Positions 2,716-48,316 of a stretch of 64,000 nt of DNA are shown here, piece after piece (within the stretch, counting starts at the first letter, position 1; every line of letters starts with the position of its first letter). The stretch lies in assembly GCA_958430865.1 (NCBI GenBank), contig CAUDNR010001702.1:1-64000 (forward strand), given 5' to 3'. Position numbers and translations under genes: made by a program. The DNA is from Entrophospora sp. SA101. Taxonomy: Eukaryota; Glomeromycota; Glomeromycetes; Entrophosporales; Entrophosporaceae. The notes under the pieces are model-generated. The model did no database searches, had not been told where the DNA came from, and was given only the letters and a program-made list of their open reading frames with translations.

Positions 2716-3084
2716 TTCTGGAGAATTGGGTATTACAATGAATTCATAGTTATCAAAGACATTATTAACATACATGTTGAAATTTCACACTTATAATTCC
2801 TTTGACAACATTATTAAGTTCTATATTTTAAAATAAAAATATTATTTTTACACTTTTATATTTTGCTGTGTAGCTAGAGAGAAATTAGTGCTAGTCTTTT
2901 ACTCTTGTCAATTTTTAAATCAAGTTAAATAAAAATACATTTAAACTTTTTTGTTGTATGCTTTGTTAATAATGTTTGTGATTTACATAATATGCCAACT
3001 CATCTGTTGTTTCAGAGATATGCCTTTAAATTATAAAAAACTACAAAGTGAACTTAAAATAATTATATATAGGATTATAGGTAT
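2716..3084. other. Intergenic, AT-rich
   Basis: No gene seen. It separates the spliced Crinkler-like gene from the intronless TGA-rich cluster. Nothing here resembles the leader found upstream of the same cluster in the other two copies (14558-14890 and 45928-46260). Confidence 0.4.
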
Positions 3085-4993
3085 ATGAAAATTAATAATG
3101 AAAATAATGGTTCTAATGAATATCAAGAAGCAATTGATTTTTTAGAAAAAGGATGTAATTGTGGTTGTTCTTCCAGAATTCCCAAGAATGAATTTGCAGA
3201 ATTAAAGGAATCCTTTCAAGCACTTTCCAAGTCTGAACAAGACATATTTTTAATGGCACAGATTAAAGCAATGGATGGAGGGACAGTAAGTGCCAGTAGA
3301 CACTTTAAAAAGAAAAATAGATCTAACAAAAGAACTTTCTATCATTGAGATCACAATACACTACTTTGTCAAGAAACTTATTTCAAAATGCTAGGAATTG
3401 GTAGAACTTATTTTGAAAATGTTAGAAATTATCTGATAAACTATGGCCTTCTACCAAGAACTCATGGTAATATTAAAAGGATGCCTCAATGGAAAACAAA
3501 GATGGTGATTGATAAAAGTGTTGCTGAAGTAGTAAAGAATTTTCTAGAGAATTATGCTGAAGTTCATGGATTACCAAGCCCAGGAAGAAGTAACAATAGA
3601 ATAACACAATCAGTTATTTTTCTACCAGCTGAAATGGGTTATAAATCAGTACATAGAGATTTTCTGGCTGGTCTGGAAGAAAACAGCAAATTGAAATCTT
3701 TAAAATATGATTCATTCAGAAAGTTATGACATCAATTGACACCAGAAATTCAAATTATGAGTCCAAGGACTTACTTGTGTGATACTTGTCAACATTTTAG
3801 AGATGGTTTACATTACAATGCTCGCCAGGAGGAAGAAGCCAAAGATTTTCTTAAAAGATTTAAAAAACATCTGTCCAAGGCCAAATTAGAAAGAAGTGAT
3901 TATAATAAAAATATCAAATTAGCAGAAGAGCAAAGAAAACTGGTTGATCAAAATTATTCCCAAGGCAAAACACAGTATTGCAGTATTGATGCTATTGCTC
4001 ATTATAGTTATGATTGAGCCCAAAATGTTCATGTACCCCATTCTGATCAAGTAAGTAAAATCTATTATCTCAGTCCATGTTAAAGTTCATTTATTTGGTA
4101 TTCAAAGATGAAGCAGTAAGGGAACAAATTAATTATGTTCTTAATGAAAATGAAATTATAGGAAAAGGTCCTAATGGCACTCTTAGCATGATTTTTGATG
4201 GAATTAAGAAATTGAATAAATGTGAAAAGCATTTAAAGATTACTTGTGATAATGCTGGGGGACAAAATAAAACCAATGTAACAATTTTGTTTTATTTATA
4301 TTTGGTAAGTTGTGGTTATTATGAAAGCATTGAATTGAATTTCATGGTTCCAGGACATACCAAATTCAAATGTGATCATCTGGAAAATATAAAAAAATTT
4401 TACACATGTCAATTGTAAGTTTAATAATAAAAAAGTGTAAAACTTACGTCGGCACTGTAAGATTTACACAATATTACGTCGGCATCGTAAGATTTATGCA
4501 ATTTTACGCTAAATTAATTTCCTGATGATGGTAGTTTTGGCTTGATTAAAAAACTTTATAGAAAGTCAAGGGTAGATTGTCTGGACCATGTAGTTGATGT
4601 AGTGAAAAGATCTAGTCCAGCAGAATTGAATAAAGCTCAATGCTACAAGACAGGAAAAGGTTTTCAATACTTAGATATTAAAGCAATTTTGGGAATTTAT
4701 TTTAAGAAATTACCAAGTATACAGAAATATCAACATTTTCTTTTTAAGACATCTAATCTTGGTATAGTAAAAGTTCAAGAAGTTGCTAATGGACTTTTGC
4801 TGAATTCAATTTATTGAAAACCAAGAAAGCAGATATCTTTGAAGAAATTAGAGCTTTATCTATTTTAGTGTTAACACCACCTCCTTTGGGTTACAAAAGG
4901 CAAGAATATCTTTATCAGAATATTTGCCCTTTTGTCAGAGATGAATTCAAAGATATTACATGCCCAAAACCATTCTATACTGGCAACAAATAA
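3085..4993 (+). pseudogene. Transposase-like protein with in-frame TGA, copy A
   Basis: One reading frame runs from 3085 to about 4075, interrupted only by TGA at 3346, 3727 and 4015. Features in order: a Cys-rich N-terminus (CNCGC), the segment LLPRTHGNIKR, a PRTYLCDTC motif, a helical KRFKKHLSKAKLERSD region, then TCDNAGGQNK followed by ELNFMVPGHTKFKCD. The last two motifs are hallmarks of a widespread eukaryotic transposase-like family (DNxGGQNKN...GHTKF, similar to DUF7869), with the Asp residues as candidate catalytic acids. The TGA at 3727 lies just before HQL.P.I.I in a motif where relatives carry Trp. Further damage: a frame change near 4075, an inserted 151-bp element at 4377-4527, and a one-base deletion near 4797 that creates an early stop. 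The mature C-terminus ends at 4993. No introns. Probably non-functional. Confidence 0.6.
4377..4527. mobile_element. Miniature inverted-repeat element (151 bp)
   Basis: Ends are CATCTGGAAA and, on the other strand, CATCAGGAAA: a 10-bp terminal inverted repeat with one mismatch. It is flanked by AT on both sides (4375-4376 and 4528-4529). It splits the transposase-like reading frame after GHTKFKCD. The copies at 15440 and 46810 have the uninterrupted sequence, so the empty site is seen. Inside is a 30-bp tandem duplication (TTACGTCGGCA..GTAAGATTTA) absent from the 121-bp relative at 5190. No coding capacity; superfamily not determined. Confidence 0.7.
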
Positions 4994-5189
4994 AATATTT
5001 AGAACGCCTTCATTACTTTATCATACTTGTTAATTTGTCCCCCTACTGTCATTAAGTTTAATAAGTTTAGCTTTTTCCACCTTTAAAGTAAAAAAGTACT
5101 AAAATAAAGTTTATATACTTAATATATCATCATAAAAAGGATATAAGTATAGTATATTAAAAAGAATAAATAAAAAAAGGAACAAACAA

Positions 5190-5310
5190 CATCCGGAAAA
5201 TATAAAAAAAATTTGCACATGTCAATCATAAGTTTAATAATAAAAAAGTGTAAAACTTACATTGACACTGTAAGATTTATGCAAATTTATGCTAAATTAA
5301 TTTCCTGATG
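5190..5310. mobile_element. Miniature inverted-repeat element (121 bp)
   Basis: Same family as the element at 4377-4527. Ends are CATCCGGAAA and CATCAGGAAA (reverse strand), with AA on both sides. It lies directly in front of the coiled-coil ORF and its last three bases supply a spurious in-frame ATG. In the diverged cluster at 47440 the sequence AATAAGAAAATCATG is uninterrupted, which marks the insertion point and points to ATG 5320 as the native start. Confidence 0.7.
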
Positions 5311-5319
5311 AAGAAAATC

Positions 5320-6200
5320 ATGACAAGCATCATAAATGAACAACAAAATGAAAATAAAGAACTTTTAAATGAAATAGAAACACTAAAAAAGCAATTAGAA
5401 AACAAAGATGATTTTAAACTAAGAATTTGAAATGCTATTTGCAATGTTAAGGAAAATGAAAGTCCAGAAATTGCTGGAACTTTAATGACCTTAGAACAAC
5501 ATTTTTGACCTAAGGATGATTGAGTAAGGATTCAAAAAGAAAATGGAGTTGAGAAAGTTATTTTTGGCAACAATTTCACTCTTGAAAATGTGGTTAAGGC
5601 TTTAGTGAATGAAACTGAAATAGTTCAAATTCTTTTGATTTTATTTACAAAAAAAATAAAGAACTTGAAGAAAAGATTGCTGAGTTAGAAAAAGGGAATG
5701 CCAAGTTAAAAGAAGAGTTAGAAAGGAATAAACTCCTTGTTGAAAAATGAAAAACAAGAGCAGAGAAGGCTGAAATAGATAATGAAATTCATTTAGAGGC
5801 TTTAGAAACAGGAGGGAAAGAAAGATGAACTCAGAAAGAAGCATCAGCAAAGGAGATAGCAGAGAAAAACCAAAAGTTAGAAATTTCTAGTAAGATAATT
5901 GAGAATAAAGGTGCAAGAATTGGTGAATTAGAATGAGAACTAAAACAAGAAAGGGAAAAAGTAGAGGTGTCTAATAAGATAATTTCAGAAAAAGAATCAC
6001 AAAACAAAAATCTCACAGAAGAAAACAAAGGATTGCAAAATCAATTGCATTTAGCTGAAAAGGATTTACCTGCTTTACCCAAAAAGCAAAGCAAATTTAG
6101 ACAATTAAGAACAAAATTAAAAACTGAATTCCATCAACTGGTGGAAAACAAAAAACACCAAATCCAAGAGTTAGTTGCTAGAATAGAGGTAAGTAGATAA
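5320..6200 (+). pseudogene. Coiled-coil protein with eight in-frame TGA codons, copy A
   Basis: Function unknown. Long Lys/Glu/Leu heptad-rich protein beginning with a KELLNEIETLKKQLENK-type helix, then a short globular part (AGTLMTLEQHF, VEKVIFGNNFTLEN), then about 180 residues of coiled coil, a DLPALPKKQ linker and the C-terminal motif QELVARIEV. In-frame TGA lies at 5428, 5506, 5521, 5610, 5616, 5748, 5826 and 5934, with no TAA or TAG before the terminal TAA at 6198 and no TGG codon. A one-base deletion near 5597 (GTTAAGGC against GTTAAAGGC in the 47.7-kb version) is the only other damage. This is the codon pattern of an organism where TGA means Trp. In a fungal nucleus it cannot give the full protein. 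Confidence 0.65.
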
Positions 6201-6203
6201 TTA

Positions 6204-6646
6204 ATGAGAGAACTAACTTACACACTTTAGATTTAGAAAGGTCAAGTTGGAAAACATGTGATTTTTGTTTTAATTGTTATGGAGAGGATAATAAATCTGT
6301 TAAACAAATAGTAGCTCATGTTAAGGTAAATGGTAAATATGTTGCATATGATGTAGTGTGTGAAAGTTGTAAGGAGAAATTCGATGTTTGTGGTGATAAA
6401 TATGTTTGTTTTTGTATTAGATATGAAGAAGACATGGAAGAAAAGGAACTCCCTCTTTTGCCTAGTGAGGAAATAAGTCAGTCTGATTTTTATGAAAGAC
6501 AAATAAATGGATTACAAGAAGAATTAGCCACTGCTGAAGAAGCATTAACAATTGAAAGAGAGGAAATAGCCAAGTTTCAGGAAAAATCTGAAGAGTGAAG
6601 TAAAAAGCAAAAACAGGAATTATTAGATAAAGAATTAAACAACTAG
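6204..6646 (+). pseudogene. Cys-rich coiled-coil protein, copy A
   Basis: Function unknown. Starts 3 nt after the previous ORF. The N-terminal half has paired cysteines (CDFCFNC, CESCKEKF, CGDKYVCFC), consistent with a zinc ribbon. The C-terminal half, after KELPLLPSEE, is a coiled coil (LQEELATAEEALTIEREE). A one-base loss in a T run near 6229 breaks the start region; the 48.3-kb version has the intact run. TGA at 6596 follows EKSEE and is read through in the same frame to TAG at 6644. This gene uses TGG once (SSWKTCDF). Its linkage and shared TGA habit suggest it belongs to the same unit as the two ORFs before it. Confidence 0.5.
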
Positions 6647-6804
6647 AAGAGGAAAACAGGAAATTAAAAGATCAGCAGAATGGTCAAATTGTTCAAATTG
6701 AAGTTAAAGAGACTAAAAGATGATCTTGATTGAAAATGAGAAAGTAGTTTAAAGAATATTCTATATAAATTGAAATTCATTCTAACTATCAAAGAAAATG
6801 GTAG

Positions 6805-7080
6805 TTATTTTCCTTTTAAAGATTTTTGCTTTTTATTAGGTAATAATGCATCATCATGATGTTTTCTTTTTCTAACACTTATTATTTTTCTTTCTTCTTG
6901 GTAAATTTCATAGGTAATACTTTCTTTTCTTAGATAAGCTTCCAGTGTCTGAACACCATTCATTTTGAAAACATAAGGAGAAATTTTTTCACCTTGTTCT
7001 TTTTTTAAAATGCTTTTGATAGTGCTATAATTCTTGGATTCCATAGTAGATCTGATGTAAATGAGTTTCATATGTTTCAT
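6805..7080 (-). CDS. Small basic hypothetical protein, copy A
   Basis: 91-residue ORF, unrecognised. It has a central region MNGVQTLEAYLRKES and a very basic C-terminus (RKRKHHDD, NKKQKSLKGK) that could be a nuclear-localisation signal. It is identical in the copies at 17718 and 48970, so conservation says nothing about selection. It lies convergent to the TGA-rich cluster and upstream of the SUN gene on the opposite strand. A fragment at about 25570-25690 (minus strand, GEKVAPDK...TIEEYL) looks distantly similar, so both may be remnants of one repeated gene family. It may not be a working gene. Confidence 0.35.
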   Translation of the reverse strand: MKHMKLIYIRSTMESKNYSTIKSILKKEQGEKISPYVFKMNGVQTLEAYLRKESITYEIYQEERKIISVRKRKHHDDALLPNKKQKSLKGK

Positions 7081-7510
7081 ATTAACTATTTTTATATAGG
7101 AGTAGTACTATATATCACTTAAAATAAATGGGATATTATAAAGCTGTTGATTATGATCACATTACAAATGACTAAATTTTGATCACTGTAACCTTTGGTA
7201 ATACCAATGTTCACTTTTTCTGGTTTTGTTGCAGCATGCCCCATATTAAGTGCGACAATATGATGTTTGTCGGTTTTATCCATTTTTAGATTAATCACGT
7301 GAAGGATTTGGGAGAAATATCAAAAAAAAAAAAGTCTTAAAGTTCTGTCTAATTAAAAAAAAAAGGTATTATTGTATAAATATATCAATAATAAGAATAA
7401 ACTCTAACAATACGCCACCAACAAGTGTAAAGCTTGCTTTACGGTTTATTTTAATTTTAAAACAAGCTCACTATTTGTATTTTCTTTTATTTATTTAATA
7501 TTTAAGAGAT
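7081..7510. promoter_or_regulatory. Promoter region of the SUN-domain gene, copy A
   Basis: AT-rich stretch with A runs, a CACGTG E-box palindrome at 7296-7301 and a T-rich segment just before the start codon at 7511. No coding sequence is convincing. A minus-strand stretch at 7190-7285 (HIVALNMGHAATK) vaguely recalls the N-terminus of ribosomal protein eL36 but is too short to call. Confidence 0.35.
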
Positions 7511-9834
7511 ATGTCAAGAAGAAGATCTCCAAGATTAAACCAGGACGAAACACCAATTAAAATAGAGGAAGAAAGTAACGAACAATTTAGCGATACTTTG
7601 TGTCGTAAAGAACAAAAACCTAAAAATGAAATTAAAAAAAGGCAGCAACAACAAAAGCATCCCAAACAACTGTATGACCAAAAACATAATCAAAAACAAC
7701 AGCAGCAATCCTCCCCACCAACACCACCTTCTTCTGATCCAAGTCATAATTGTGATAACGACGATTATTTAAAACATGAAGATATTCCTCGATCATGTAA
7801 ATTTTTACCTATTTATCCTGTTGATACCATTAATCATTCTTCTAGCTAAATAACACATAAAATTTTTAATAAAGGGCCGTATGATCAAAATGGAAATAGT
7901 TCTTACAACGGTTCAAGACGTGCATCTATTGAGTCAACAACTACCTTAGCATCAATTATATCAGAATCGTCAGTATTTAGATCATCCAACAATTCACAAA
8001 TTAATCCTTCCAGTAATACCAGTTCACTTACCTCAAATACTTCTATAAATTGTTTTAACCATTACAACAAAAATAACAACGATAATAATAATAATCATAA
8101 TATATTTAATGAATGTATTAAACCTACTTTAGATAATCATGATGATAACAATGCAGGTTCTTCTCTTAGTAGAATGGCTAATGACGAGAAAAGCATGCAA
8201 AGTCAATATAATTTAAGACCCAGGTTTAACATTGAAAAAAATAATAACCAGAAGAAAAGAATCGAGAAACCAATTAATAAAACTAAACATAAAAGCGATG
8301 CTAAAGCTAGAGGAAAAGAAGACATTGATAATAACGGCAGCAAAGACAACAACAGTAATAATATAGATCATAATAATATAGATCACAATGATATAAATCG
8401 CCATGATACAGATCACCATGATATAGATCGCAACGATATAGATCGCAATGTCGTTATGGATCGCAATGATGACGCTATGGATCAAGTCATTGATAATGAT
8501 GATGATAATACACGTCAAGAATTAGACAATGATAAAAATAAGATTGTGTATGTAATACGTTTATATTACTTATAAGAATTTTTTAAACTATGAATATACC
8601 TTTAATACTATTAGTAATATATTAATATTATTATTTATTTAGGATATTGGCTAAAGCGATTTTCGGGTTATTAAACGCTAAATGGGTTGTGGGTACAGCA
8701 GTTATGACGTTTATATTGTTTCTAGGTTTCTTTTGCATTTGTCGATTGTCATATATAAGTGATCGATGTCAATATTGGATAGTTAAAGACAGTGATCTCA
8801 ATTCGGAATATACAAATTATGTAGATGCTGGTAGCGATATTAAATATGAACATAGCGATGTAATAATTCGAGCTGCAGTTGCGGAACAAGTTAGAAGCTT
8901 GTGTGCGGCAGAAATCCAAAAACGTATTCAACCTGAAAACAATGAAATGGCTAGATATCAAAAATATATTCTCGATGATGTAGTTGCCGAAATTATTAAA
9001 AACGAGATTCACAAAGCGGTAGAAGAAAAATTGTATATTTATTCACAGGATAGGTTAAATAAGGCAGATTATGCACTTTCCTCAGGTGGTGCAAAGATCA
9101 TTAGTCCGTTAACATCTCCAACGTATGAAATGTGGCCTACGCAATGGCATCAACGAATTATGGCAGCAATAACTGGTCATGGAATCACGAGAGGCAAGCC
9201 ACCAATAACGGCTCTTCAACCTGAGACTCATGTTGGCCAGTGTTGGCCTTTTGCTGGACCGAAAGGTCAATTAGCGGTATTGTTGAGTAGAAGAATCTAT
9301 GTTACAGCTATAACTTATGATCATGTGAGTAAAGATATAGCAATGGGTGTCACAAGTGCACCAAAAGAATTTGAAGTATGGGGATTTGTTGATGATGTTC
9401 CAGAAGTGATTATCGATAATTCATATCCAAAACAAGGACATGAACCATTATTATTGAAACAAACAGATGATGTCATTCAAGAAGAAAAACAAGAAAGTAT
9501 TTTTGGCGATCATTCCGCCATTCCAAGTGATCTAAACGATACAAATGACACAAGCAATCCAAATGACGCAGCAAATAATCCAAGTGAATCAAGTTCAGAT
9601 GAAAAAAATGGCGACGAAAGAGATTTAAAGCTTGGCTCGTCACCAAATCATTTATTTTTGGGGAAATTTACTTATGATATAAACGGATCCACCATACAAA
9701 CCTTTGAAGCGCTTAGATACAGTAAACCGATAATAGCTGTTTTAATGAAGGTAAATAGCAATTGGGATAATCCACAATATACTTGTCTTTATAGATTTCG
9801 TGTTCATGGAATACGATCGAATTATCAATCTTGA
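7511..9834 (+). CDS. SUN-domain (Sad1/UNC-84) inner nuclear membrane protein, copy A
   Basis: Builds the LINC complex that couples the nuclear envelope to the cytoskeleton by binding KASH proteins in the perinuclear space. Exons 7511-7796, 7875-8547 and 8643-9834 splice in frame through GTAAAT...AAG and GTATGT...TAG introns, giving 716 residues. Without the first intron a TAA at 7847 would stop translation. The N-terminus (nucleoplasmic) is Asn/Gln/Ser-rich, begins MSRRRSPRLN and includes a degenerate IDRND/IDHND repeat. One membrane segment lies in WVVGTAVMTFILFLGFFCIC. A helical region follows, then the C-terminal SUN domain from about YALSSGGAKI through GQCWPFAGPKGQLAVLLS to CLYRFRVHGI. 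The GQCWPF core and the W-x-F-V-D segment are typical of SUN folds. An acidic Asn/Asp insert (DTNDTSNPNDAANNPS) interrupts the domain. Confident. Confidence 0.88.
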
Positions 9835-11470
9835 TTTATATATATAATACACACACATACATACATACATATATGTACATATTTAGGTGATTATATAATT
9901 TATTTATAATTTATTTATTTTGTAAATATATTTATTTTTTTTTCATAAATTATTATTTAAAAATTGTATATTTTTTTTTAATAAATTTGTTAATTCCATT
10001 TTTTTTTCACTTAAAAAATATATTCCAATATATATTTTTTAGATTTTAGAAAAAGTTTTATTTTTATTTTGTAAGGACAATTAATATAAATAAATATATA
10101 ATTTGTAAAAAAAAATTTATTTAATAACTTCCTGTTCTATGATATCTACTCTACCTTATCATTGTATTATTAATTAATTATCTCTTGCAGTCGAGTTGAA
10201 ATGAAAATTTAATTTCTCCAAAAATAACGGTTCTTCTTGACTGAGAACTGCAAAACAAAATGTAGATATTAAAAAAAATATAAATTGCATATATTTTGTG
10301 TTTAGCGATCTTTCTCGCCTATGTGGTGATTGGTGGTAGTGTGAACTGCACGATAGGCACAAACATTGAATTTATGTTGTACCTGTCATCACTCATTTCT
10401 TCTTTTTTGATGAGATGCCCATGATGTAGTAAGCTTTTTTTCTATCATAAGTACCGACACATTCACATGCAGATTAGTCATATCTCCCAAGGTCGTTCAT
10501 GCTTTGCTTGCATTGCTCCATATACTGCTTGCTTTATTAATATCGGGACTTTACAAAAAGGCAAAGTCGGATAAGAATAACTTCACAGAAAGTCTAATCG
10601 GGTGAAAATCAAGATCAAAAGACTTGAACAATATCCTCGTCGAGCTATACTGTTCTTTTTTTTTATTATATATATTACTACATTGTCACGTACCCCATTA
10701 AGCTATAATGTTTTTCAGATAATTGCGCGCTTTACCCGCTTACTTTATGCTTGAATACAATTCTACCACTTTTAAATAACTAAGCTACTATCTAATTAAT
10801 TAGACCAAAAGGCTGTCTTTTTACTTTCCCTAGGCATGAATACGAAGGACTTTAACTGACACTCGCGTTGATCACGTGAGACTACCAATATGTATGCGCA
10901 GTTACTATCATCTTGTAAATTTTTAAAAAGATGATAATTAAGAAATTGGTTTTATCAAGAATGAAGATTCAAGCAATGAACGATTAAAAGATTTGGTAAT
11001 TATCAATTGATTATTCAGAGATATAAATCCGAATTTTAAAATTTTTTATAGAAATCCAATTCGGATGATTTTTGAATTAGAGCAAATTGTAAAGCAAAAT
11101 CTCTAATTTCTGTCAACGTAAATTGAGCTGTTTTCTAAACTTGATTTTTCAAATCAAATTGAGGTGACTAACAATCTTATTTAAATTGACTTATCAAAGT
11201 GGAGCAGCTCATAGGGTCCAACTAACGATGAAAACACCAAACACCAACGATATACAAATCAAATGCTCGTTGAATAAAGTCTTGTAACAAGCATTGTTTG
11301 TTTCAATCCCATTTTTGAAATTAATTGACGATTGTTTTTGGTAAAAAAAAACTACTGTGATAAAATTTATATATAGTAATAAGAATACATATATATGAAA
11401 GAAAAAAAGGTGAATAAGATGGTATGAAAAAAGCCACCCATCCTTTATAAATGGGTTGTATGGCTATTCG
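9835..11470. other. Intergenic region, copy A
   Basis: The first 300 bases are very AT-rich and probably hold the SUN transcript end. From 10130 to 11400 there is mixed-composition sequence with a CACGTG E-box near 10876 and short inverted repeats around 11030-11070 (AATCCGAATTTT / AATTCGGAT). I see no convincing gene. Copies B and C differ from A here by a handful of bases. Confidence 0.35.
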
Positions 11471-11860
11471 GCCAAGAAAAGTTTTCTGAACTGCATGAAG
11501 CTTTTCGAGCTCTTTCCAAAACAGAACAAGGCACATGCTTGATGGCGTAGCGTACCTCAGTGGATAGTGGAGCAATGAGGATGAGCAGATTCCTCAAAAA
11601 GAAAATTAGTGCAATAAGAAAGATCATAATATTTCTGCTAACAAACATGCTATGAATTGGTCATGAAATCATCAAAAAGTTCATGGTAATTACTAAAAAA
11701 ATGTCACAATGAAAAGCAAAATTGGGAATTGACAAAAAGGTTACTGAGACTATGAAAATTTTTCTCTTTGAATTATGCAGAAGTTCATGGATTATCAAGT
11801 CCTTGAAAGAAATGTAAATAGAACAATCTATTCATTTATATTTTTACCAAACAATTGCTT
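11471..11860 (+). pseudogene. Relic of the transposase-like family, copy A
   Basis: Fragment matching the N-terminal third of the protein at 3085. Segments such as KFSELHEAFRALSKTEQ and KAKLGIDKKVTETMK parallel EFAELKESFQALSKSEQ and KTKMVIDKSVAEVVK. It has TAG, TAA and several TGA stops and frame changes. TGA at 11710-11712 (in MSQ-KAK) aligns exactly with TGG at 3490-3492 (MPQWKTK), direct support for TGA having meant Trp in this family. Confidence 0.6.
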
Positions 11861-12181
11861 AGTATTTACAAAGTAATATGTGCATTGCTAGCTTTTTTTT
11901 TTTTAATTATTAAATTTACATATACTTCTTATTCTTATAATTGATTAAGTAATTAAATAACAAAATAATAATATTTTACCTTAATAAATTAAGAAGGAAA
12001 AAAATAAATTATGAAATAATAATGAGAAAGTTATCATAATTCAAAAAAACATTTATTTACTTTTTCTTTCTATATAATTTTTCCGAATAATAATAATAAT
12101 AATTAATGATATTGACGACAGATAATATATATTATTAGGTTGATTTAATTAATTAATTTGCTTGCTTGTTTGTTTGTTTGT

Positions 12182-13025
12182 TTACTCTTCATCATTCATA
12201 TGATCAAAAAGATAATTTGCTGCCATTTCTTCATTTTTGTCACAAGCAAGATACGCTTCAATTGCAAGTGCTCTATCAAATCCTAAAGCTTCCAACTACC
12301 AAAAAAATATATTTATCATTATTAATATTAATAAAAAAAAACAATAAGGTTGAAAATTGAAAATTGAAATTATTGTTGAAATTATTATTTAATTCATTTA
12401 CCCTGTCAATTGCTTCTTTTTCTTCCTGTGTCACAGAAACATATTGTGGTGGTGGAAGATTGCCCTCACCACCTTCATCCGGTTCTTGTAAAAGTCTCAT
12501 AAATGTAGCTTGATTCGAATTTATAAGCTAAACCAAACAATAATTTATTATTATCATTGTTAAGAAAGTAGCGTTAATATATTATAAATATGATGATGAT
12601 ATACCTGCAATAATTCAGGATTTTGAGCACCAATCTGTTGGAGTAATGGTTGCAATAAACTTGGATTTTGTTGAACAAATTGTCTTAAATTTCGAAAATG
12701 TGGTTGATTTCTCAAAAAATTCAAATCATCCATATTCCCTCCTCCTTGTCCACCACCACCGCCGCCACCTTGGGTTGCTCTTTGTCTTTGTTGTTGTAAA
12801 TTTTGTGCTTGTTGAAAAAGATTTAAATGTTGTGTACCTAATAGATTATATTATATAATTACATTATTAAAATTAATTTTTTATTATTTACTTGTTTCTA
12901 TGTTATAAAAACTTACTTAAATTAGGAGCACTATTGGTACTAGTAGGGTTTGTAACACCTGGTGCTGGCGTAGCAGAAGTAGTATTTCCGCTTGGGGTAT
13001 TGGTTGTTGTTGTTGTTGTTGTTGG
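12182..13025 (-). pseudogene. RAD23: RAD23, 3' part only, copy A
   Basis: Carries the C-terminal UBA domain, the XPC-binding (STI1-like) domain and the Gln/Gly-rich linker of the complete gene at 23095-25210. The ubiquitin-like domain and first UBA are missing. The sequence leaves RAD23 inside its ACA/TTG triplet repeat and continues directly into inverted HIR1 sequence, with the 7-bp TTGTTGG (13019-13025) shared at the join. Not functional as it stands; either a rearrangement or an assembly chimera. Confidence 0.8.
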
Positions 13026-14472
13026 ACTATTGTTGTAGTTGGTTTATGTGCTGATAAATCTGACATATGCGATGTTTGTGACGATAGAGTAGATTGTGAT
13101 AAGATTTGATCACCACCCATTAAAGCTGCTATTCTAGAAGAGGAAATTATTTTTTTTGATATTGCATTCTCTTCTTCCATAGCAAGTTGAGTAGTATTTT
13201 CAATAATTACTGGTTCTTTTGGTTTGTAACCATGTTTCGATAAAATTCTTTCTTGTTCTTCAGGTTTCAATGGTTCACCAAATTGATTTTTTTTAAATTC
13301 CAGTATTGTGGCAGTTCCATCATATGAACAAGCAAAAAGAAATCTTCCATCAGGTGACCACGATAAATCTAAGATACAATGTGTGAATAATTGTTTAAAG
13401 ACTAATAATGGGTGAGAAGAAGATGTTGCCCAAATGGATACACCATGATCTTGACTTCCAATTGCACAAACACCACCAACAATGGTTCCACGATCTTGAT
13501 CTCGAATATGATAAAGAATTGGACTAAAACACTTTTTTAAAAAATAAAAATTTTTATCAAATTATAATTTCCCCCTTGAAATTTTAGTTAATATATTACT
13601 ATTTACTATATATTCATACATATACAATGATACTTACAACAACTTCTGTTGGAGATTCGTGGCCAATCATTGAAACATCGATTTTCCATTCATCTCTACG
13701 GAGAGCTATTGCAACAGGCACAGACCCCTGACAAGCATTAGGAATTGCTAGATGAGAACCTTCTGGTGACCAACTAAATAACGAATCCATTAATATTAAA
13801 TTAGAAATTTTATGATAAAGTATTTTTAACAATAGATAAATAAATGAAATGAAATGAAAATTAGTGCCTTAATCTGCTAAAGAAAGTTGTTATGGGAGAA
13901 TTTAAAAATGGTTCATTTATTTCTGTCTGAACTTTCCAATCACTAGTTCGCCAAATCTTAACTGATTTGTCATCAGCCTAGTAATAATATTAATAATTAA
14001 TAATGATTGACATGTGTATAATAAATTTAATTATCAAATACCTGTGTAGCCAAGTATTCACCGATAGGATCCCATGAAACACCTTTTACAAAAGCACTAT
14101 GACCTTCCAGTTTATGTAGTCTCTCTTTTCAAATGATAAAAGTTTATGAATATAAAATTTTTTCTTTAAAAATATTTATTTTATAGATTGCTATTCACCA
14201 GAAGTTTGACAATTCCATATATAAACTGTACTATCAAATCCACAGGAAGCCAAATATGTATTATCAGGTGACCAAGATAAATCTGCTACATCTTCATTTC
14301 CCCAAAAAAAAAATCATAAATTTTTTGAACTGTTACAAGTAAAGATAAATATTATTCAAAGGATAGATTTTCTTTACCTGATTCATGACCAGCTAAACGT
14401 CTAATTGGTTTCCAAACTTCGATATTTTGTTCACCGCTTCCAAAAGTACTACCGCCTCCCCAACTAACTGCA
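13026..14472 (-). pseudogene. HIR1: HIR1 fragment, inverted, copy A
   Basis: Reverse complement of about 28588-30035 of the complete HIR1 gene (paired positions sum to 43060). It holds WD40-repeat exons, including the GC-AG intron, and the start of the Ser/Thr-rich linker. Both ends are missing. A few base differences from copies B and C (for example SDLSAHK against SDLSSHK) show it is a distinct allele, not a duplicate read. Convergent to nothing; abuts truncated RAD23 on one side and a scrap of the Asn-rich gene on the other. Confidence 0.8.
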
Positions 14473-14557: not shown

Positions 14558-14890
14558 ATTATTATCGCTAATAAAACACATAACATATTTTACCCTAAAT
14601 AATAATCTCTAATTAATTAATAAACTACAAAGGGTAAACCTTTGCTGTACTTAATAAGTAACCAACATTCTAATCATTGAGAAACATCTCAAGGGGACGC
14701 CTTTGGGATATAATTAAATATATAGAACCTAGGGACCCTTTTATCTGAAAAGATAAAAGTTATATTTTATTGATTTTTGACCGTAAGTCAGTGAGTAGGC
14801 TGTGTAACACTAGAATCAACCGTAAGTCAGCGAGGAGGCTGTGTGTTGAACCATAAATAACCTATTAATTAGGAAACTCGGATTGCACGC
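14558..14890 (+). repeat. Leader repeat upstream of the transposase-like gene, copy B
   Basis: Nearly identical to 45928-46260. No coding capacity. It holds two 26-bp direct repeats, 14780-14805 and 14819-14844 (ACCGTAAGTCAG.GAG.AGGC). It fuses to the transposase-like reading frame in mid-protein, so it comes from something else, perhaps the 5' part of an LTR-type element (see 45802). Confidence 0.45.
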
Positions 14891-15906
14891 TTGCACCAGC
14901 ATTTTAGAGATGGTTTCCATTATAATGCTCGCCAAGAGGAAGAAGCTAAAGATTTGCTCAAAAGATTTAAAGAAAATTTGTCCAAGGCCAAATTAGAAAG
15001 AAATTATTATAATAAAAATACAAAATTAGCAGAAGAACAAAGAAAATTAGTTAATAAAAATTATTCAAAGGGTAAAACATCATATTGCAACATTGATGTC
15101 ACTGCTCATTATAGTTATGATTGAGCCCAAAATGTTCATGTGCCCCATTCTGACCAACAGGTAAGTAAAATATATTATCTCAGCCCATTTAAAGTCCATT
15201 TATTTGATATTCAAGATGAAGATGAAATTATAGGAAAAGATCCTAATGGTACACTTGGTATGATCTTTGATGGAATTAAAAAATTGAACAAAGTGAAAAG
15301 CATTTAAAGATTACTTGTGATAATGCTGGAGGACAAAATAAAAATAATCTAACAATTTGATTTTATTTATATTTGGTAATTTGTGGTTATTATGAAAGGA
15401 TTGAATTGAATTTCATGATTCCTGGACATACAAATTTAAATGTGATGTTAATTTTGGGATGATTAAAAAACTCTACAGAAGAATAAGAGTAGATTGTCTA
15501 GACCATGTGGTTGATGTGAAAAGATCTAGTCCAGCAGGATTGAATGAGACTCAATGTTATGAAGATGGAAAGGTTTCCAATACTTAGATATTAAAGCAAT
15601 TTTGGGAATTTATTTTAAGAAATTACCAAGTATACAGAAATATCAACATTTTCTTTTTAAGACATCTAATCTTGGTATAGTAAAAGTTCAAGAAGTTGCT
15701 AATGGACTTTTGCTGAATTCAATTTATTGAAAACCAAGAAAGCAGATATCTTTGAAGAAATTAGAGCTTTATCTATTTTAGTGTTAACACCACCTCCTTT
15801 GGGTTACAAAAGGCAAGAATATCTTTATCAGAATATTTGCCCTTTTGTCAGAGATGAATTCAAAGATATTACATGCCCAAAACCATTCTATACTGGCAAC
15901 AAATAA
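14891..15906 (+). pseudogene. Transposase-like protein, truncated and mosaic, copy B
   Basis: Begins at the HFRDG position of the family, so about the first 230 residues are absent. In-frame TGA at 15122 (SYD-AQNVHV) is shared with copy A at 4015. From 14891 to about 15590 it matches copy C; from about 15583 it is identical to copy A (offset 10913), including A's one-base deletion that ends the frame near 15731. The site of the 151-bp element of copy A is empty here. Not functional. Confidence 0.6.
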
Positions 15907-16102
15907 AATATTTAGAACGCCTTCATTACTTTATCATACTTGTTAATTTGTCCCCCTACTGTCATTAAGTTTAATAAGTTTAGCTTTTTCCACCTTTAAA
16001 GTAAAAAAGTACTAAAATAAAGTTTATATACTTAATATATCATCATAAAAAGGATATAAGTATAGTATATTAAAAAGAATAAATAAAAAAAGGAACAAAC
16101 AA

Positions 16103-16223
16103 CATCCGGAAAATATAAAAAAAATTTGCACATGTCAATCATAAGTTTAATAATAAAAAAGTGTAAAACTTACATTGACACTGTAAGATTTATGCAAATT
16201 TATGCTAAATTAATTTCCTGATG
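16103..16223. mobile_element. Miniature inverted-repeat element, copy B
   Basis: Identical copy of the 121-bp element at 5190-5310, carried along by the block duplication rather than a separate insertion. Confidence 0.7.
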
Positions 16224-16232
16224 AAGAAAATC

Positions 16233-17113
16233 ATGACAAGCATCATAAATGAACAACAAAATGAAAATAAAGAACTTTTAAATGAAATAGAAACACTAAA
16301 AAAGCAATTAGAAAACAAAGATGATTTTAAACTAAGAATTTGAAATGCTATTTGCAATGTTAAGGAAAATGAAAGTCCAGAAATTGCTGGAACTTTAATG
16401 ACCTTAGAACAACATTTTTGACCTAAGGATGATTGAGTAAGGATTCAAAAAGAAAATGGAGTTGAGAAAGTTATTTTTGGCAACAATTTCACTCTTGAAA
16501 ATGTGGTTAAGGCTTTAGTGAATGAAACTGAAATAGTTCAAATTCTTTTGATTTTATTTACAAAAAAAATAAAGAACTTGAAGAAAAGATTGCTGAGTTA
16601 GAAAAAGGGAATGCCAAGTTAAAAGAAGAGTTAGAAAGGAATAAACTCCTTGTTGAAAAATGAAAAACAAGAGCAGAGAAGGCTGAAATAGATAATGAAA
16701 TTCATTTAGAGGCTTTAGAAACAGGAGGGAAAGAAAGATGAACTCAGAAAGAAGCATCAGCAAAGGAGATAGCAGAGAAAAACCAAAAGTTAGAAATTTC
16801 TAGTAAGATAATTGAGAATAAAGGTGCAAGAATTGGTGAATTAGAATGAGAACTAAAACAAGAAAGGGAAAAAGTAGAGGTGTCTAATAAGATAATTTCA
16901 GAAAAAGAATCACAAAACAAAAATCTCACAGAAGAAAACAAAGGATTGCAAAATCAATTGCATTTAGCTGAAAAGGATTTACCTGCTTTACCCAAAAAGC
17001 AAAGCAAATTTAGACAATTAAGAACAAAATTAAAAACTGAATTCCATCAACTGGTGGAAAACAAAAAACACCAAATCCAAGAGTTAGTTGCTAGAATAGA
17101 GGTAAGTAGATAA
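16233..17113 (+). pseudogene. Coiled-coil protein with in-frame TGA, copy B
   Basis: Same as 5320-6200, with the same eight TGA codons and the same one-base deletion. This shows the lesions predate the duplication of the block. Confidence 0.65.
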
Positions 17114-17116
17114 TTA

Positions 17117-17559
17117 ATGAGAGAACTAACTTACACACTTTAGATTTAGAAAGGTCAAGTTGGAAAACATGTGATTTTTGTTTTAATTGTTATGGAGAGG
17201 ATAATAAATCTGTTAAACAAATAGTAGCTCATGTTAAGGTAAATGGTAAATATGTTGCATATGATGTAGTGTGTGAAAGTTGTAAGGAGAAATTCGATGT
17301 TTGTGGTGATAAATATGTTTGTTTTTGTATTAGATATGAAGAAGACATGGAAGAAAAGGAACTCCCTCTTTTGCCTAGTGAGGAAATAAGTCAGTCTGAT
17401 TTTTATGAAAGACAAATAAATGGATTACAAGAAGAATTAGCCACTGCTGAAGAAGCATTAACAATTGAAAGAGAGGAAATAGCCAAGTTTCAGGAAAAAT
17501 CTGAAGAGTGAAGTAAAAAGCAAAAACAGGAATTATTAGATAAAGAATTAAACAACTAG
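17117..17559 (+). pseudogene. Cys-rich coiled-coil protein, copy B
   Basis: Same as 6204-6646, including the T-run frame change. From about 17471 onward this copy is base-for-base like copy C (offset 31252); before that point copy C is a diverged version. Confidence 0.5.
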
Positions 17560-17717
17560 AAGAGGAAAACAGGAAATTAAAAGATCAGCAGAATGGTCAA
17601 ATTGTTCAAATTGAAGTTAAAGAGACTAAAAGATGATCTTGATTGAAAATGAGAAAGTAGTTTAAAGAATATTCTATATAAATTGAAATTCATTCTAACT
17701 ATCAAAGAAAATGGTAG

Positions 17718-17993
17718 TTATTTTCCTTTTAAAGATTTTTGCTTTTTATTAGGTAATAATGCATCATCATGATGTTTTCTTTTTCTAACACTTATTATTT
17801 TTCTTTCTTCTTGGTAAATTTCATAGGTAATACTTTCTTTTCTTAGATAAGCTTCCAGTGTCTGAACACCATTCATTTTGAAAACATAAGGAGAAATTTT
17901 TTCACCTTGTTCTTTTTTTAAAATGCTTTTGATAGTGCTATAATTCTTGGATTCCATAGTAGATCTGATGTAAATGAGTTTCATATGTTTCAT
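17718..17993 (-). CDS. Small basic hypothetical protein, copy B
   Basis: Same 91-residue ORF as at 6805-7080. Unrecognised; may be a remnant. Confidence 0.33.
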   Translation of the reverse strand: MKHMKLIYIRSTMESKNYSTIKSILKKEQGEKISPYVFKMNGVQTLEAYLRKESITYEIYQEERKIISVRKRKHHDDALLPNKKQKSLKGK

Positions 17994-18423
17994 ATTAACT
18001 ATTTTTATATAGGAGTAGTACTATATATCACTTAAAATAAATGGGATATTATAAAGCTGTTGATTATGATCACATTACAAATGACTAAATTTTGATCACT
18101 GTAACCTTTGGTAATACCAATGTTCACTTTTTCTGGTTTTGTTGCAGCATGCCCCATATTAAGTGCGACAATATGATGTTTGTCGGTTTTATCCATTTTT
18201 AGATTAATCACGTGAAGGATTTGGGAGAAATATCAAAAAAAAAAAAGTCTTAAAGTTCTGTCTAATTAAAAAAAAAAGGTATTATTGTATAAATATATCA
18301 ATAATAAGAATAAACTCTAACAATACGCCACCAACAAGTGTAAAGCTTGCTTTACGGTTTATTTTAATTTTAAAACAAGCTCACTATTTGTATTTTCTTT
18401 TATTTATTTAATATTTAAGAGAT

Positions 18424-20747
18424 ATGTCAAGAAGAAGATCTCCAAGATTAAACCAGGACGAAACACCAATTAAAATAGAGGAAGAAAGTAACGAACAATT
18501 TAGCGATACTTTGTGTCGTAAAGAACAAAAACCTAAAAATGAAATTAAAAAAAGGCAGCAACAACAAAAGCATCCCAAACAACTGTATGACCAAAAACAT
18601 AATCAAAAACAACAGCAGCAATCCTCCCCACCAACACCACCTTCTTCTGATCCAAGTCATAATTGTGATAACGACGATTATTTAAAACATGAAGATATTC
18701 CTCGATCATGTAAATTTTTACCTATTTATCCTGTTGATACCATTAATCATTCTTCTAGCTAAATAACACATAAAATTTTTAATAAAGGGCCGTATGATCA
18801 AAATGGAAATAGTTCTTACAACGGTTCAAGACGTGCATCTATTGAGTCAACAACTACCTTAGCATCAATTATATCAGAATCGTCAGTATTTAGATCATCC
18901 AACAATTCACAAATTAATCCTTCCAGTAATACCAGTTCACTTACCTCAAATACTTCTATAAATTGTTTTAACCATTACAACAAAAATAACAACGATAATA
19001 ATAATAATCATAATATATTTAATGAATGTATTAAACCTACTTTAGATAATCATGATGATAACAATGCAGGTTCTTCTCTTAGTAGAATGGCTAATGACGA
19101 GAAAAGCATGCAAAGTCAATATAATTTAAGACCCAGGTTTAACATTGAAAAAAATAATAACCAGAAGAAAAGAATCGAGAAACCAATTAATAAAACTAAA
19201 CATAAAAGCGATGCTAAAGCTAGAGGAAAAGAAGACATTGATAATAACGGCAGCAAAGACAACAACAGTAATAATATAGATCATAATAATATAGATCACA
19301 ATGATATAAATCGCCATGATACAGATCACCATGATATAGATCGCAACGATATAGATCGCAATGTCGTTATGGATCGCAATGATGACGCTATGGATCAAGT
19401 CATTGATAATGATGATGATAATACACGTCAAGAATTAGACAATGATAAAAATAAGATTGTGTATGTAATACGTTTATATTACTTATAAGAATTTTTTAAA
19501 CTATGAATATACCTTTAATACTATTAGTAATATATTAATATTATTATTTATTTAGGATATTGGCTAAAGCGATTTTCGGGTTATTAAACGCTAAATGGGT
19601 TGTGGGTACAGCAGTTATGACGTTTATATTGTTTCTAGGTTTCTTTTGCATTTGTCGATTGTCATATATAAGTGATCGATGTCAATATTGGATAGTTAAA
19701 GACAGTGATCTCAATTCGGAATATACAAATTATGTAGATGCTGGTAGCGATATTAAATATGAACATAGCGATGTAATAATTCGAGCTGCAGTTGCGGAAC
19801 AAGTTAGAAGCTTGTGTGCGGCAGAAATCCAAAAACGTATTCAACCTGAAAACAATGAAATGGCTAGATATCAAAAATATATTCTCGATGATGTAGTTGC
19901 CGAAATTATTAAAAACGAGATTCACAAAGCGGTAGAAGAAAAATTGTATATTTATTCACAGGATAGGTTAAATAAGGCAGATTATGCACTTTCCTCAGGT
20001 GGTGCAAAGATCATTAGTCCGTTAACATCTCCAACGTATGAAATGTGGCCTACGCAATGGCATCAACGAATTATGGCAGCAATAACTGGTCATGGAATCA
20101 CGAGAGGCAAGCCACCAATAACGGCTCTTCAACCTGAGACTCATGTTGGCCAGTGTTGGCCTTTTGCTGGACCGAAAGGTCAATTAGCGGTATTGTTGAG
20201 TAGAAGAATCTATGTTACAGCTATAACTTATGATCATGTGAGTAAAGATATAGCAATGGGTGTCACAAGTGCACCAAAAGAATTTGAAGTATGGGGATTT
20301 GTTGATGATGTTCCAGAAGTGATTATCGATAATTCATATCCAAAACAAGGACATGAACCATTATTATTGAAACAAACAGATGATGTCATTCAAGAAGAAA
20401 AACAAGAAAGTATTTTTGGCGATCATTCCGCCATTCCAAGTGATCTAAACGATACAAATGACACAAGCAATCCAAATGACGCAGCAAATAATCCAAGTGA
20501 ATCAAGTTCAGATGAAAAAAATGGCGACGAAAGAGATTTAAAGCTTGGCTCGTCACCAAATCATTTATTTTTGGGGAAATTTACTTATGATATAAACGGA
20601 TCCACCATACAAACCTTTGAAGCGCTTAGATACAGTAAACCGATAATAGCTGTTTTAATGAAGGTAAATAGCAATTGGGATAATCCACAATATACTTGTC
20701 TTTATAGATTTCGTGTTCATGGAATACGATCGAATTATCAATCTTGA
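18424..20747 (+). CDS. SUN-domain inner nuclear membrane protein, copy B
   Basis: Same three-exon structure as copy A (18424-18709, 18788-19460, 19556-20747) and the same 716-residue product: disordered Asn/Gln-rich N-terminus, one membrane span and a C-terminal SUN domain. No amino-acid differences from copy A were noticed. Intact. Confidence 0.88.
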
Positions 20748-22383
20748 TTTATATATATAATACACACACATACATACATACATATATGTACATATTTAGG
20801 TGATTATATAATTTATTTATAATTTATTTATTTTGTAAATATATTTATTTTTTTTTCATAAATTATTATTTAAAAATTGTATATTTTTTTTTAATAAATT
20901 TGTTAATTCCATTTTTTTTTCACTTAAAAAATATATTCCAATATATATTTTTTAGATTTTAGAAAAAGTTTTATTTTTATTTTGTAAGGACAATTAATAT
21001 AAATAAATATATAATTTGTAAAAAAAAATTTATTTAATAACTTCCTGTTCTATGATATCTACTCTACCTTATCATTGTATTATTAATTAATTATCTCTTG
21101 CAGTTGAGTTGAAATGAAAATTTACTTTCTCCCAAAATAACGCTTCTTCTTGACTGAGAACTGAAAAACAAAATGTAGATATTAAAAAAAATATAAATTG
21201 CATATATTTTGTGTTTAGCGATCTTTCTCGCCTATGTGGTGATTGGTGGTAGTGTGAACTGCACGATAGGCACAAACATTGAATTTATGTTGTACCTGTC
21301 ATCACTCATTTCTTCTTTTTTGATGAGATGCCCATGATGTAGTAAGCTTTTTTTCTATCATAAGTACCGACACATTCACATGCAGATTAGTCATATCTCC
21401 CAAGGTCGTTCATGCTTTGCTTGCATTGCTCCATATACTGCTTGCTTTATTAATATCGGGACTTTACAAAAAGGCAAAGTCGGATAAGAATAACTTCACA
21501 GAAAGTCTAATCGGGTGAAAATCAAGATCAAAAGACTTGAACAATATCCTCGTCGAGCTATACTGTTCTTTTTTTTTATTATATATATTACTACATTGTC
21601 ACGTACCCCATTAAGCTATAATGTTTTTCAGATAATTGCGCGCTTTACCCGCTTACTTTATGCTTGAATACAATTCTACCACTTTTAAATAACTAAGCTA
21701 CTATCTAATTAATTAGACCAAAAGGCTGTCTTTTTACTTTCCCTAGGCATGAATACGAAGGACTTTAACTGACACTCGCGTTGATCACGTGAGACTACCA
21801 ATATGTATGCGCAGTTACTATCATCTTGTAAATTTTTAAAAAGATGATAATTAAGAAATTGGTTTTATCAAGAATGAAGATTCAAGCAATGAACGATTAA
21901 AAGATTTGGTAATTATCAATTGATTATTCAGAGATATAAATCCGAATTTTAAAATTTTTTATAGAAATCCAATTCGGATGATTTTTGAATTAGAGCAAAT
22001 TGTAAAGCAAAATCTCTAATTTCTGTCAACGTAAATTGAGCTGTTTTCTAAACTTGATTTTTCAAATCAAATTGAGGTGACTAACAATCTTATTTAAATT
22101 GACTTATCAAAGTGGAGCAGCTCATAGGGTCCAACTAACGATGAAAACACCAAACACCAACGATATACAAATCAAATGCTCGTTGAATAAAGTCTTGTAA
22201 CAAGCATTGTTTGTTTCAATCCCATTTTTGAAATTAATTGACGATTGTTTTTGGTAAAAAAAAACTACTGTGATAAAATTTATATATAGTAATAAGAATA
22301 CATATATATGAAAGAAAAAAAGGTGAATAAGATGGTATGAAAAAAGCCACCCATCCTTTATAAATGGGTTGTATGGCTATTCG
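20748..22383. other. Intergenic region, copy B
   Basis: Corresponds to 9835-11470 with scattered base changes, for example around 21105-21150. No gene seen. Confidence 0.35.
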
Positions 22384-22773
22384 GCCAAGAAAAGTTTTCT
22401 GAACTGCATGAAGCTTTTCGAGCTCTTTCCAAAACAGAACAAGGCACATGCTTGATGGCATAGCTTACCTCAATGGATAGTGGAGCAATGAGTATGAGCA
22501 GATTCCTCAAAAAGAAAATTAGTGCAATAAGAAAGATCATAATATTTCTGCTAACAAACATGCTATGAATTGGTCATGAAATCATCAAAAAGTTCATGGT
22601 AATTACTAAAAAAATGTCACAATGAAAAGCAAAATTGGGAATTGACAAAAAGGTTACTGAGACTATGAAAATTTTTCTCTTTGAATTATGCAGAAGTTCA
22701 TGGATTATCAAGTCCTTGAAAGAAATGTAAATAGAACAATCTATTCATTTATATTTTTACCAAACAATTGCTT
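22384..22773 (+). pseudogene. Relic of the transposase-like family, copy B
   Basis: Equivalent of 11471-11860, including the TGA that aligns with the TGG of copy A's full-length member (here at 22623-22625). Multiple stops; dead. Confidence 0.6.
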
Positions 22774-23094
22774 AGTATTTACAAAGTAATATGTGCATTG
22801 CTAGCTTTTTTTTTTTTAATTATTAAATTTACATATACTTCTTATTCTTATAATTGATTAAGTAATTAAATAACAAAATAATAATATTTTACCTTAATAA
22901 ATTAAGAAGGAAAAAAATAAATTATGAAATAATAATGAGAAAGTTATCATAATTCAAAAAAACATTTATTTACTTTTTCTTTCTATATAATTTTTCCGAA
23001 TAATAATAATAATAATTAATGATATTGACGACAGATAATATATATTATTAGGTTGATTTAATTAATTAATTTGCTTGCTTGTTTGTTTGTTTGT

Positions 23095-25210
23095 TTACTC
23101 TTCATCATTCATATGATCAAAAAGATAATTTGCTGCCATTTCTTCATTTTTGTCACAAGCAAGATACGCTTCAATTGCAAGTGCTCTATCAAATCCTAAA
23201 GCTTCCAACTACCAAAAAAATATATTTATCATTATTAATATTAATAAAAAAAAACAATAAGGTTGAAAATTGAAAATTGAAATTATTGTTGAAATTATTA
23301 TTTAATTCATTTACCCTGTCAATTGCTTCTTTTTCTTCCTGTGTCACAGAAACATATTGTGGTGGTGGAAGATTGCCCTCACCACCTTCATCCGGTTCTT
23401 GTAAAAGTCTCATAAATGTAGCTTGATTCGAATTTATAAGCTAAACCAAACAATAATTTATTATTATCATTGTTAAGAAAGTAGCGTTAATATATTATAA
23501 ATATGATGATGATATACCTGCAATAATTCAGGATTTTGAGCACCAATCTGTTGGAGTAATGGTTGCAATAAACTTGGATTTTGTTGAACAAATTGTCTTA
23601 AATTTCGAAAATGTGGTTGATTTCTCAAAAAATTCAAATCATCCATATTCCCTCCTCCTTGTCCACCACCACCGCCGCCACCTTGGGTTGCTCTTTGTCT
23701 TTGTTGTTGTAAATTTTGTGCTTGTTGAAAAAGATTTAAATGTTGTGTACCTAATAGATTATATTATATAATTACATTATTAAAATTAATTTTTTATTAT
23801 TTACTTGTTTCTATGTTATAAAAACTTACTTAAATTAGGAGCACTATTGGTACTAGTAGGGTTTGTAACACCTGGTGCTGGCGTAGCAGAAGTAGTATTT
23901 CCGCTTGGGGTATTGGTTGTTGTTGTTGTTGTTGTTGGTGTTGTTGTTGTTGGTGTTGTTTGTGCTGCTGGAGGAGCTGTTGTTCCTGAACTATTATCAA
24001 AATTCTCTGGAATTCCCTATTTTTAAAATTGTTTCAAAAAAAAAATTTATTACAAACAAGTACGTGTATATGTAAAATAAAATAGATATTTTAATTACTA
24101 TAGATATATATACGTACAGTCATAAGATATTCAACAGCCCTGTTTGGATTATTAAAACTTGCCCGCATGGCGCTTACAGCTGATTCACGATCGAATCCCA
24201 TCTCCATCATATATTGAACTGATTTTTCATAATCAGCCCCAGTAACTTTGAATTTTGTAATAATAAAATAATAATTGTTATTATTATAATTAATGGTTAA
24301 TATAAAATCAATCATTAAAAATATTTCAATAAGCAAATAACAATTTCTTTTTCTTTTTTCAATAAATACCTAAAGCATTAGGATTATTGAATAATTCTGA
24401 CATTTGAGAAGCATCAGATGCTGGATTAGATTCTGCTGCACCAGTATCGGCAGTGGTAGTGGTGGTTGTTGTGGTAGCTGGTAATGGTATTGTAGCGGTA
24501 GATGAAGTTTCAGTTGTGACGACAGTGTTAGTAGTGGCTGTTGTAGGCGATGTTGGAAGTTTTACAGCATCTGAAGTTTCGCTAGATTTAGTTGTTGATG
24601 ATGGAGTAGATTGGCGTTTAGATTGTGGCTATAATCATTTATAATCATAATTATGATAATAATAATTAGTAAGGTGACGATAGATGGATGATATTGTCAT
24701 AATAGTGTAGTAATGGTAATAGTAATAGTTATGTTAAAGTAATAATCAATCGGGTAATTTCTAGTCACCTTCGTAACCACGAGCACCATGAAATCTTTTT
24801 CTGTAATATCATATTCTGATAATTTTTTATCATCTGTCAAGATTTTTCCTGTTTAAAAATGATGATGGTGAATTATTTATTTATCGATTGATTTTTGTTA
24901 GATTAAAAAAAAACCAAAATAAAACTTATGCCATAAAGAATATTGTTTAAGTTTTAGGAGGAATACCTGAATAAATAAGTTTTTGGGTAGGAATATCGTA
25001 TTCTTTAATTTCTTGAATCTTCTCTTTAATATTAAGCACCTAAAATGTACAACGTAAAATGAACAATAATGAGTAATAAGAAAGTGGACGTAAGCTAAAT
25101 CAACAACAGTAAAAACAAGATTAATAACGATAAGGTCAACATACTGTATCCTCTAATTCAACATCTAATTGAAATTGATCTTGTTTTAAAGTTTTTATTG
25201 TAATCTTCAT
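23095..25210 (-). CDS. RAD23: UV excision repair protein RAD23, copy B
   Basis: Shuttle factor that brings ubiquitinated proteins to the proteasome and stabilises the XPC/Rad4 damage sensor in nucleotide excision repair. Start codon at 25208-25210, with first exon 25145-25210 and second 24967-25039; in all about eight short exons. Domain order: ubiquitin-like domain ([13 protein letters not shown]... to DFMVLVVTK), a Thr/Ser/Ala-rich linker, UBA1 ([22 protein letters not shown]), a Thr-rich and Gly/Gln-rich linker, XPC-binding domain ([24 protein letters not shown]), and C-terminal UBA2 ([18 protein letters not shown]). This is the complete standard layout and near the usual length. Its neighbour on the left is the dead transposase relic; the 1-kb region on the right separates it from another minus-strand gene. 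Confidence 0.92.
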
Positions 25211-47277: not shown

Positions 47278-47450
47278 AATATTTAGAATAAAATCACCTC
47301 CAGTATTTCATTGTCATTAAGTTTAATAAGTTTAATCTTTCAATAAATATTGCTAGCTTTTAGTAAAAAAAATACTAAAATAGTTATATACTTAATATAC
47401 TCTCTAAAAAGGATATAAGGATTATTAAAAGAATAATAAATAAGAAAATC

Positions 47451-48297: not shown

Positions 48298-48316
48298 TTT
48301 TTACACTTTACAATAA

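Follow-up and report, generated by a model that had tools for sequence, protein, structure and literature searches.

Mollicutes-related endobacteria (MRE) of arbuscular mycorrhizal fungi, such as Candidatus Moeniiplasma, read TGA as tryptophan. DNA from endosymbionts and organelles also occurs in nuclear genomes, as Wolbachia and mitochondrial inserts illustrate. Here, we describe a repeated element that resembles such inserts in being foreign-code or bacterial DNA in a nucleus, but differs from them in being a defined repeat with a conserved 3′ end rather than random chromosome pieces. Its transposase-like protein belongs to the DUF7869 family. Two Moeniiplasma DUF7869 proteins fall in the same clade and come from a host that reads TGA as Trp, but they form a separate sister group and enter the comparison as protein sequences. 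The standard-code DUF7869 genes of Rhizophagus and Gigaspora share the domain and the location in fungal genomes, whereas their identity is about 36–40% and they need no TGA=Trp reading. Our literature search found no paper on the DUF7869 family and no title or abstract that describes a fungal nuclear transposon written with TGA=Trp; subscription papers lay mostly outside this search.

We analyzed a 64-kb window, the start of contig C1269 of Entrophospora sp. SA101, and searched the 101-Mb, 2123-contig assembly of the same genome. Pairwise homology between the window and 20 other loci, together with a 3′ end motif, delimited a decayed element copy at 3028–7242 on the forward strand, with an approximate 5′ edge and a 3′ edge given by the conserved terminal motif. 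The element is therefore larger than the 3085–6646 proposed in a first-pass annotation made from the sequence alone. All genes below lie on the forward strand unless stated otherwise. The N-terminal part of the transposase-like gene (3085–4083) is broken by TGA only, as that annotation had read it, at 3346, 3727 and 4015 (Trp columns 88, 215 and 311 of the family alignment). The DUF7869 domain continues in another frame at 4077–4418 (PF25273, 40.6 bits, cut-off 26), and the C-terminal part, recognized from the ORF list and by-eye comparison with intact copies, occupies 4542–4992. Within the gene, about 150 extra bases (4376–4525) are absent from the C1419 copy L009, and frameshifts were seen by eye at about 4075–4110 and near 4795.

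The coiled-coil gene CC1 (5308–6200) contains all eight TGA codons listed at first pass (5428, 5506, 5521, 5610, 5616, 5748, 5826 and 5934) and no TGG, but it runs in two frames rather than in the one ORF then described, since a frameshift at about 5597–5600 leaves three TGAs in 5308–5688 and five in 5598–6200. Closely spaced with it is CC2 (6197–6646), a second coiled-coil or Cys-rich gene with one TGA (6596), one TGG and an apparent frameshift near 6228 (by eye). A predicted 91-aa ORF on the reverse strand (6805–7080) lies near the 3′ end, in a region kept between copies (homology to about +3988). At the other end, 3043–3055 (forward strand) carries a variant of ACAAAGTGAACAT, a motif inverse to a segment of the 3′ end; the window version has two differences and was not among the motif matches.

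The flanks of the window copy are of fungal type, and both neighbors agree with the first-pass description. One is a SUN gene (Sad1_UNC, 107.8 bits) with seven TGG codons and a terminal TGA. The other is a decayed gene with weak kinase matches in Pfam, which we take to be Crinkler-like; its stops fall opposite I, M, R and G rather than Trp. Own-genome matches identified two further forward-strand copies in the window, a partial one at 14873–17559 whose CC1 and CC2 are identical to those of the first copy, and a partial, diverged one at 45928–48811. The window also contains long near-identical blocks, 17400–32748 versus 48652–64000 (99.94%) and 4526–13043 versus 15443–23954 (99.5%). The left edges of both block pairs lie inside element copies, pointing to either recombination between copies or an assembly artefact.

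The element is present in high copy number. Its transposase-like gene gave 125 matches in the assembly, with 121 of 987 candidates scored and with single copies in part split over more than one match, and CC2 gave 178. More than 40 near-full matches, several percent apart, are spread over many contigs of up to 246 kb. Five of the 20 fetched loci (L011, L016, L020, L022 and L023) encode a full-length protein of ~584–607 aa, and the one in L016 matches PF25273 at 67.6 bits, above the cut-off of 26. We infer that this protein is the transposase of the element. A DDE/RNase H-like transposase would have an acidic triad, and invariant acidic columns are present in the alignment; a search for related solved structures yielded none, its single match having an E-value of 0.47.

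Eight fetched loci and the window have a common 3′ end, ...TTTTGTTGCAG[C/T]ATGCCCC, with at most two mismatches. In the window this end lies at 7200–7242 on the forward strand. It has the form ...TGTTCACTTT(G/T)TCTGGTTTTGTTGCAGCATGCCCC, and ATAT comes next in seven of the nine sequences. A scan of 21 sequences located its inverse partner, ACAAAGTGAACAT, upstream of the gene in 14 of them. The 5′ edge differs between copies, and some copies have common upstream flanks of 100–840 bases, which argues that part of the copying took place inside the fungal genome. Locus L027 is a deletion derivative that keeps both ends; searching the own genome for its empty site returned only L027 itself and a 77-base piece on C2, and no target-site duplications were resolved at the element ends. 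The leader contains a TATA-like stretch (by eye), and L010 has a short insert in its leader upstream of the transposase, which may be a small transposon.

Of ten ORFs scanned in the flanks of element copies, four had no assigned family; the others were a kinesin, a SPOC protein, two kinases and two transposases. No MRE gene was recognized among the flank genes examined, which speaks against a piece of an MRE chromosome. A phage or plasmid identity was rejected, as PHROGs had no match for five proteins, phages none for the coiled-coil protein, plasmids none for the transposase and viral contigs none for the transposase alignment.

The gene family of the element is written in a TGA=Trp code. We fetched and aligned 61 copies, 60 of them distinct (one duplicate). 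Trp column 88 holds 41 TGG, 14 TGA and 3 other codons, column 136 holds 43, 14 and 3, column 215 has 59 TGA and 1 TGG, and column 311 has 52 TGA and 1 TGT. TGA and TGG exchange at two of these four columns (88 and 136), and neither TAA nor TAG occurs at any of them in the 60 distinct copies. A hand count over the first 48 match rows gave 122 in-frame TGA versus 4 TAA/TAG. In 50 better copies, chosen among high-scoring matches so that broken copies are under-represented, just 3 TAA/TAG and 2 TGA fall off the Trp columns; ten diverged copies (L073–L075, L077 and L081–L086), nine of them with TAA/TAG or TGA elsewhere, were left out of the rate estimates. Both the excess of TGA beyond random decay and the TGA=Trp code, suspected from the window alone, are thus confirmed across the family.

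We also aligned 45 relatives, among them four from the TGA clade and others that use the standard code. At column 215 every one of the 44 relatives covering it has Trp; at column 311, 27 of 44 have Trp and 15 have F or Y. On a tree built without the columns concerned, at least 10 TGG/TGA state changes are needed at column 88 and 9 at column 136, counts to be read with the star-like, weakly resolved shape of this tree and with recombination, which could inflate them. In CC1 and CC2, likewise, the same Trp columns hold both TGA and TGG, in few and noisy alignments that contain TGA and TAA/TAG elsewhere too. A single element ORF contains up to 11 TGA codons.

Selection was assessed by pairwise NG86 under code 4, using 1225 pairs from the 50 copies. 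Median values were 0.344 for dS, 0.055 for dN and 0.163 for omega, and past purifying selection under the TGA=Trp reading is well supported. Recent release from constraint after insertion is only weakly indicated. The four pairs with dS <0.05 have mean dN 0.010 and dS 0.020 (dN/dS 0.5), but the next four (dS 0.05–0.06), all among the same four copies, have mean dN 0.009 and dS 0.055, a ratio of about 0.16. A straight fit to pairs with dS >0.15 gave dN = 0.032 + 0.070 dS, with an intercept of 0.021–0.044 when copies were resampled; such a positive intercept could reflect relaxed recent change or mildly harmful variants. Two calculations were set aside: a split of private versus shared change (omega 0.81 vs. 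0.12), because variants can look shared merely through recurrent synonymous change, and a Fisher test of young pairs against a distant pair (p 0.013), whose distant-pair counts were estimated, not computed.

The best 120 of 562 transposase relatives included sequences from Ambispora, Diversispora, Gigaspora and Geosiphon, which points to an arbuscular-mycorrhizal-type fungal host; a Geosiphon relative sits on a 1.19-Mb contig. The same search found Candidatus Moeniiplasma glomeromycotorum I3273_02745 (52% identity over 55% of the query), and a search with that protein reached a second DUF7869 protein, I3273_07265. These Moeniiplasma relatives are ~52–65% identical to the copies in this genome. 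In a 43-row tree, 27 rows form a TGA clade (support 100/97) with two groups. The group of 10 (100/99) contains both Moeniiplasma proteins, metagenome proteins and one protein each from Ambispora and Cetraspora assemblies; the group of 17 (100/99) contains the copies of this genome together with Gigaspora rosea, Ambispora, Diversispora, Geosiphon and metagenomes. The Ambispora, Diversispora and Geosiphon copies are separated by short branches, which suggests that the element spread recently among distant hosts. The neighbor of the TGA clade is a group of eight (six Rhizophagus/Gigaspora, one Gigaspora margarita and one archaeal-labelled MAG protein) and is mainly standard-code fungal DUF7869. 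The fungus-to-bacterium-to-fungus path once suggested for the locus is compatible with this topology, but the tree has a midpoint root only and gives no direction. A mitochondrial origin, already disfavored then, found no support, as the relatives are nuclear, bacterial and metagenomic.

Bacterial relatives, 31–39% identical to the Moeniiplasma protein, were identified in 11 loci (L033–L043) by a genome-contig scan with an alignment; the first such scan, before the alignment query, gave none. These loci comprise DUF7869 genes of sulfate reducers, Thiomargarita, Legionellales and others, and fish and sponge records also occur, making this a cross-domain family.

MRE contigs within fungal assemblies are already known (PMC11423566), and the present assembly contains them. 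Bacterial replicases with internal TGA were found on four contigs, DnaE on C293 and C792 and PolC on C1734 and C1669, which is consistent with two MRE phylotypes. Integrases with TGA raise the recognized Mollicutes-type MRE contigs to 17, these four and 13 others. With best candidates only scored, none of the 17 was among the matches listed for the transposase, DUF7869, CC1 or CC2. The presence of these contigs and of Moeniiplasma proteins in the same clade upholds the tie to MRE drawn at first pass.

Tentatively, and at a little less than an even chance, we favor a DUF7869 transposon that is kept functional in a TGA=Trp endobacterium and repeatedly yields nuclear copies in the fungal host, where they decay. 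The transposon, a transposase-like gene with closely packed coiled-coil genes, would be maintained in a Moeniiplasma-like MRE. Copies would repeatedly arise in the nuclear genome of an arbuscular-mycorrhizal-type host, entering presumably by transposition and with the bacterium as the presumed continuing source. There TGA would be a stop, so that full-length protein should not be made, and the copies would drift, gaining TAA/TAG and frameshifts. Segmental duplication would multiply them further, and some copying may also occur in trans. Of the two options raised at first pass, endobacterial DNA or a mobile unit adapted to an endobacterium, the mobile unit in a fungal-type nuclear context is the one supported; the window carries one frameshifted copy of a repeated family, not a single insert of bacterial DNA.

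In favor of the bacterium is that all 50 lineages show divergence under constraint, a pattern not easily produced by trans-acting copies in one nucleus. The TGA/TGG exchange at Trp columns, the Trp of all covering relatives at column 215, the different reading of TGA in host genes, the sister position to the Moeniiplasma group, the MRE replicases with TGA and the close spacing of CC1 and CC2 likewise favor a bacterial source. Against it stand the 17 recognized MRE contigs missing from the matches listed, the limited identity to the Moeniiplasma relatives, the weak sign of relaxation after insertion, the upstream flanks common to some copies and the TATA-like leader. A broader proposal, possible but decidedly tentative, is that of a cross-domain transposon. 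A TGA=Trp endobacterium would translate it and provide the selection, yet it would integrate repeatedly into the fungal nucleus, leave a large foreign-code graveyard there and have moved between distant fungal lineages with bacteria as the vehicle.

We consider it somewhat less likely that the element is instead a resident nuclear transposon translated in the fungus by UGA recoding, through a suppressor tRNA or efficient readthrough inserting Trp. The many nuclear copies, the constraint on each lineage in the omega data and the recognized MRE contigs without any copy would fit this explanation, but the number of TGA codons in one ORF, up to 11, counts against it, as does the host code. Among 150 matches to host WD40 exons (scored of 788 candidates, with many duplicates), none had TGA and seven had TAG. 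In a search with the Moeniiplasma protein, 22 rows that are 36–43% identical to it belong mainly to another DUF7869 clade; 12 of these rows have no stop, six one TAA, two one TGA and two twelve mixed stops. Because no WD40 match has TGA and these rows are mostly open, the host appears to read TGA otherwise. Six places in the genome, on contigs C253, C845, C1348, C1365, C1427 and C2085, resemble a TCA-anticodon arm, in line with recoding; all six have the same 20 bases, which look like a tRNA D-arm and TCA-anticodon loop. A reversed control pattern matched twice and a stricter tRNA pattern matched nowhere in the genome, including the six places. The window contains no tRNA and the 20 element loci a single tRNA-Val; a general search found no suppressor tRNA among the 63 of 4483 candidates scored, which makes this absence weak.

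Less probable still, a few old transfers from the endobacterium could have been followed by nuclear spread in trans through resident standard-code DUF7869 transposases. A second DUF7869 clade with mostly open frames does reside in the same genome, some copies have common flanks, and L027 is a deletion derivative with both ends; untranslated passengers, however, would not be expected to keep omega at about 0.16 with dS at 0.34, or to have TGA at Trp columns only. We regard as very unlikely an assembly artefact in which endobacterial repeats were misjoined into fungal contigs. MRE reads are in the sample, and the long near-identical blocks of the contig start inside element copies, but the more than 40 near-full matches are several percent apart and scattered over many contigs, the 17 recognized MRE contigs lack the element among the matches listed, and a Geosiphon relative is on a 1.19-Mb contig. 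Ordinary decay of a standard-code transposon, to which the frameshifted window copy and the decayed kinase-like neighbor might point, is practically untenable given so few stops off the Trp columns in the better copies, no TAG at those columns and an omega of 0.16.

The finding bears on annotation in other mycorrhizal fungi. By eye, the segment surrounding Trp 311 is missing from the predicted proteins P0004, P0007, P0012, P0014 and P0015, and in P0007 and P0012 so is the one surrounding Trp 215, as though splicing had removed the TGA codons. If the fungus reads these TGAs instead, its nucleus would harbor a recoding that was not expected there. Gene transfer from the fungal host to these endobacteria has been reported (PMC10507103). 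If the bacterial source that we favor is true, a mobile element entering the host nucleus in bacterial code would represent traffic in the opposite direction, and the direction and rate of such transfer would become testable, as each copy bears in its code a mark of where it evolved.
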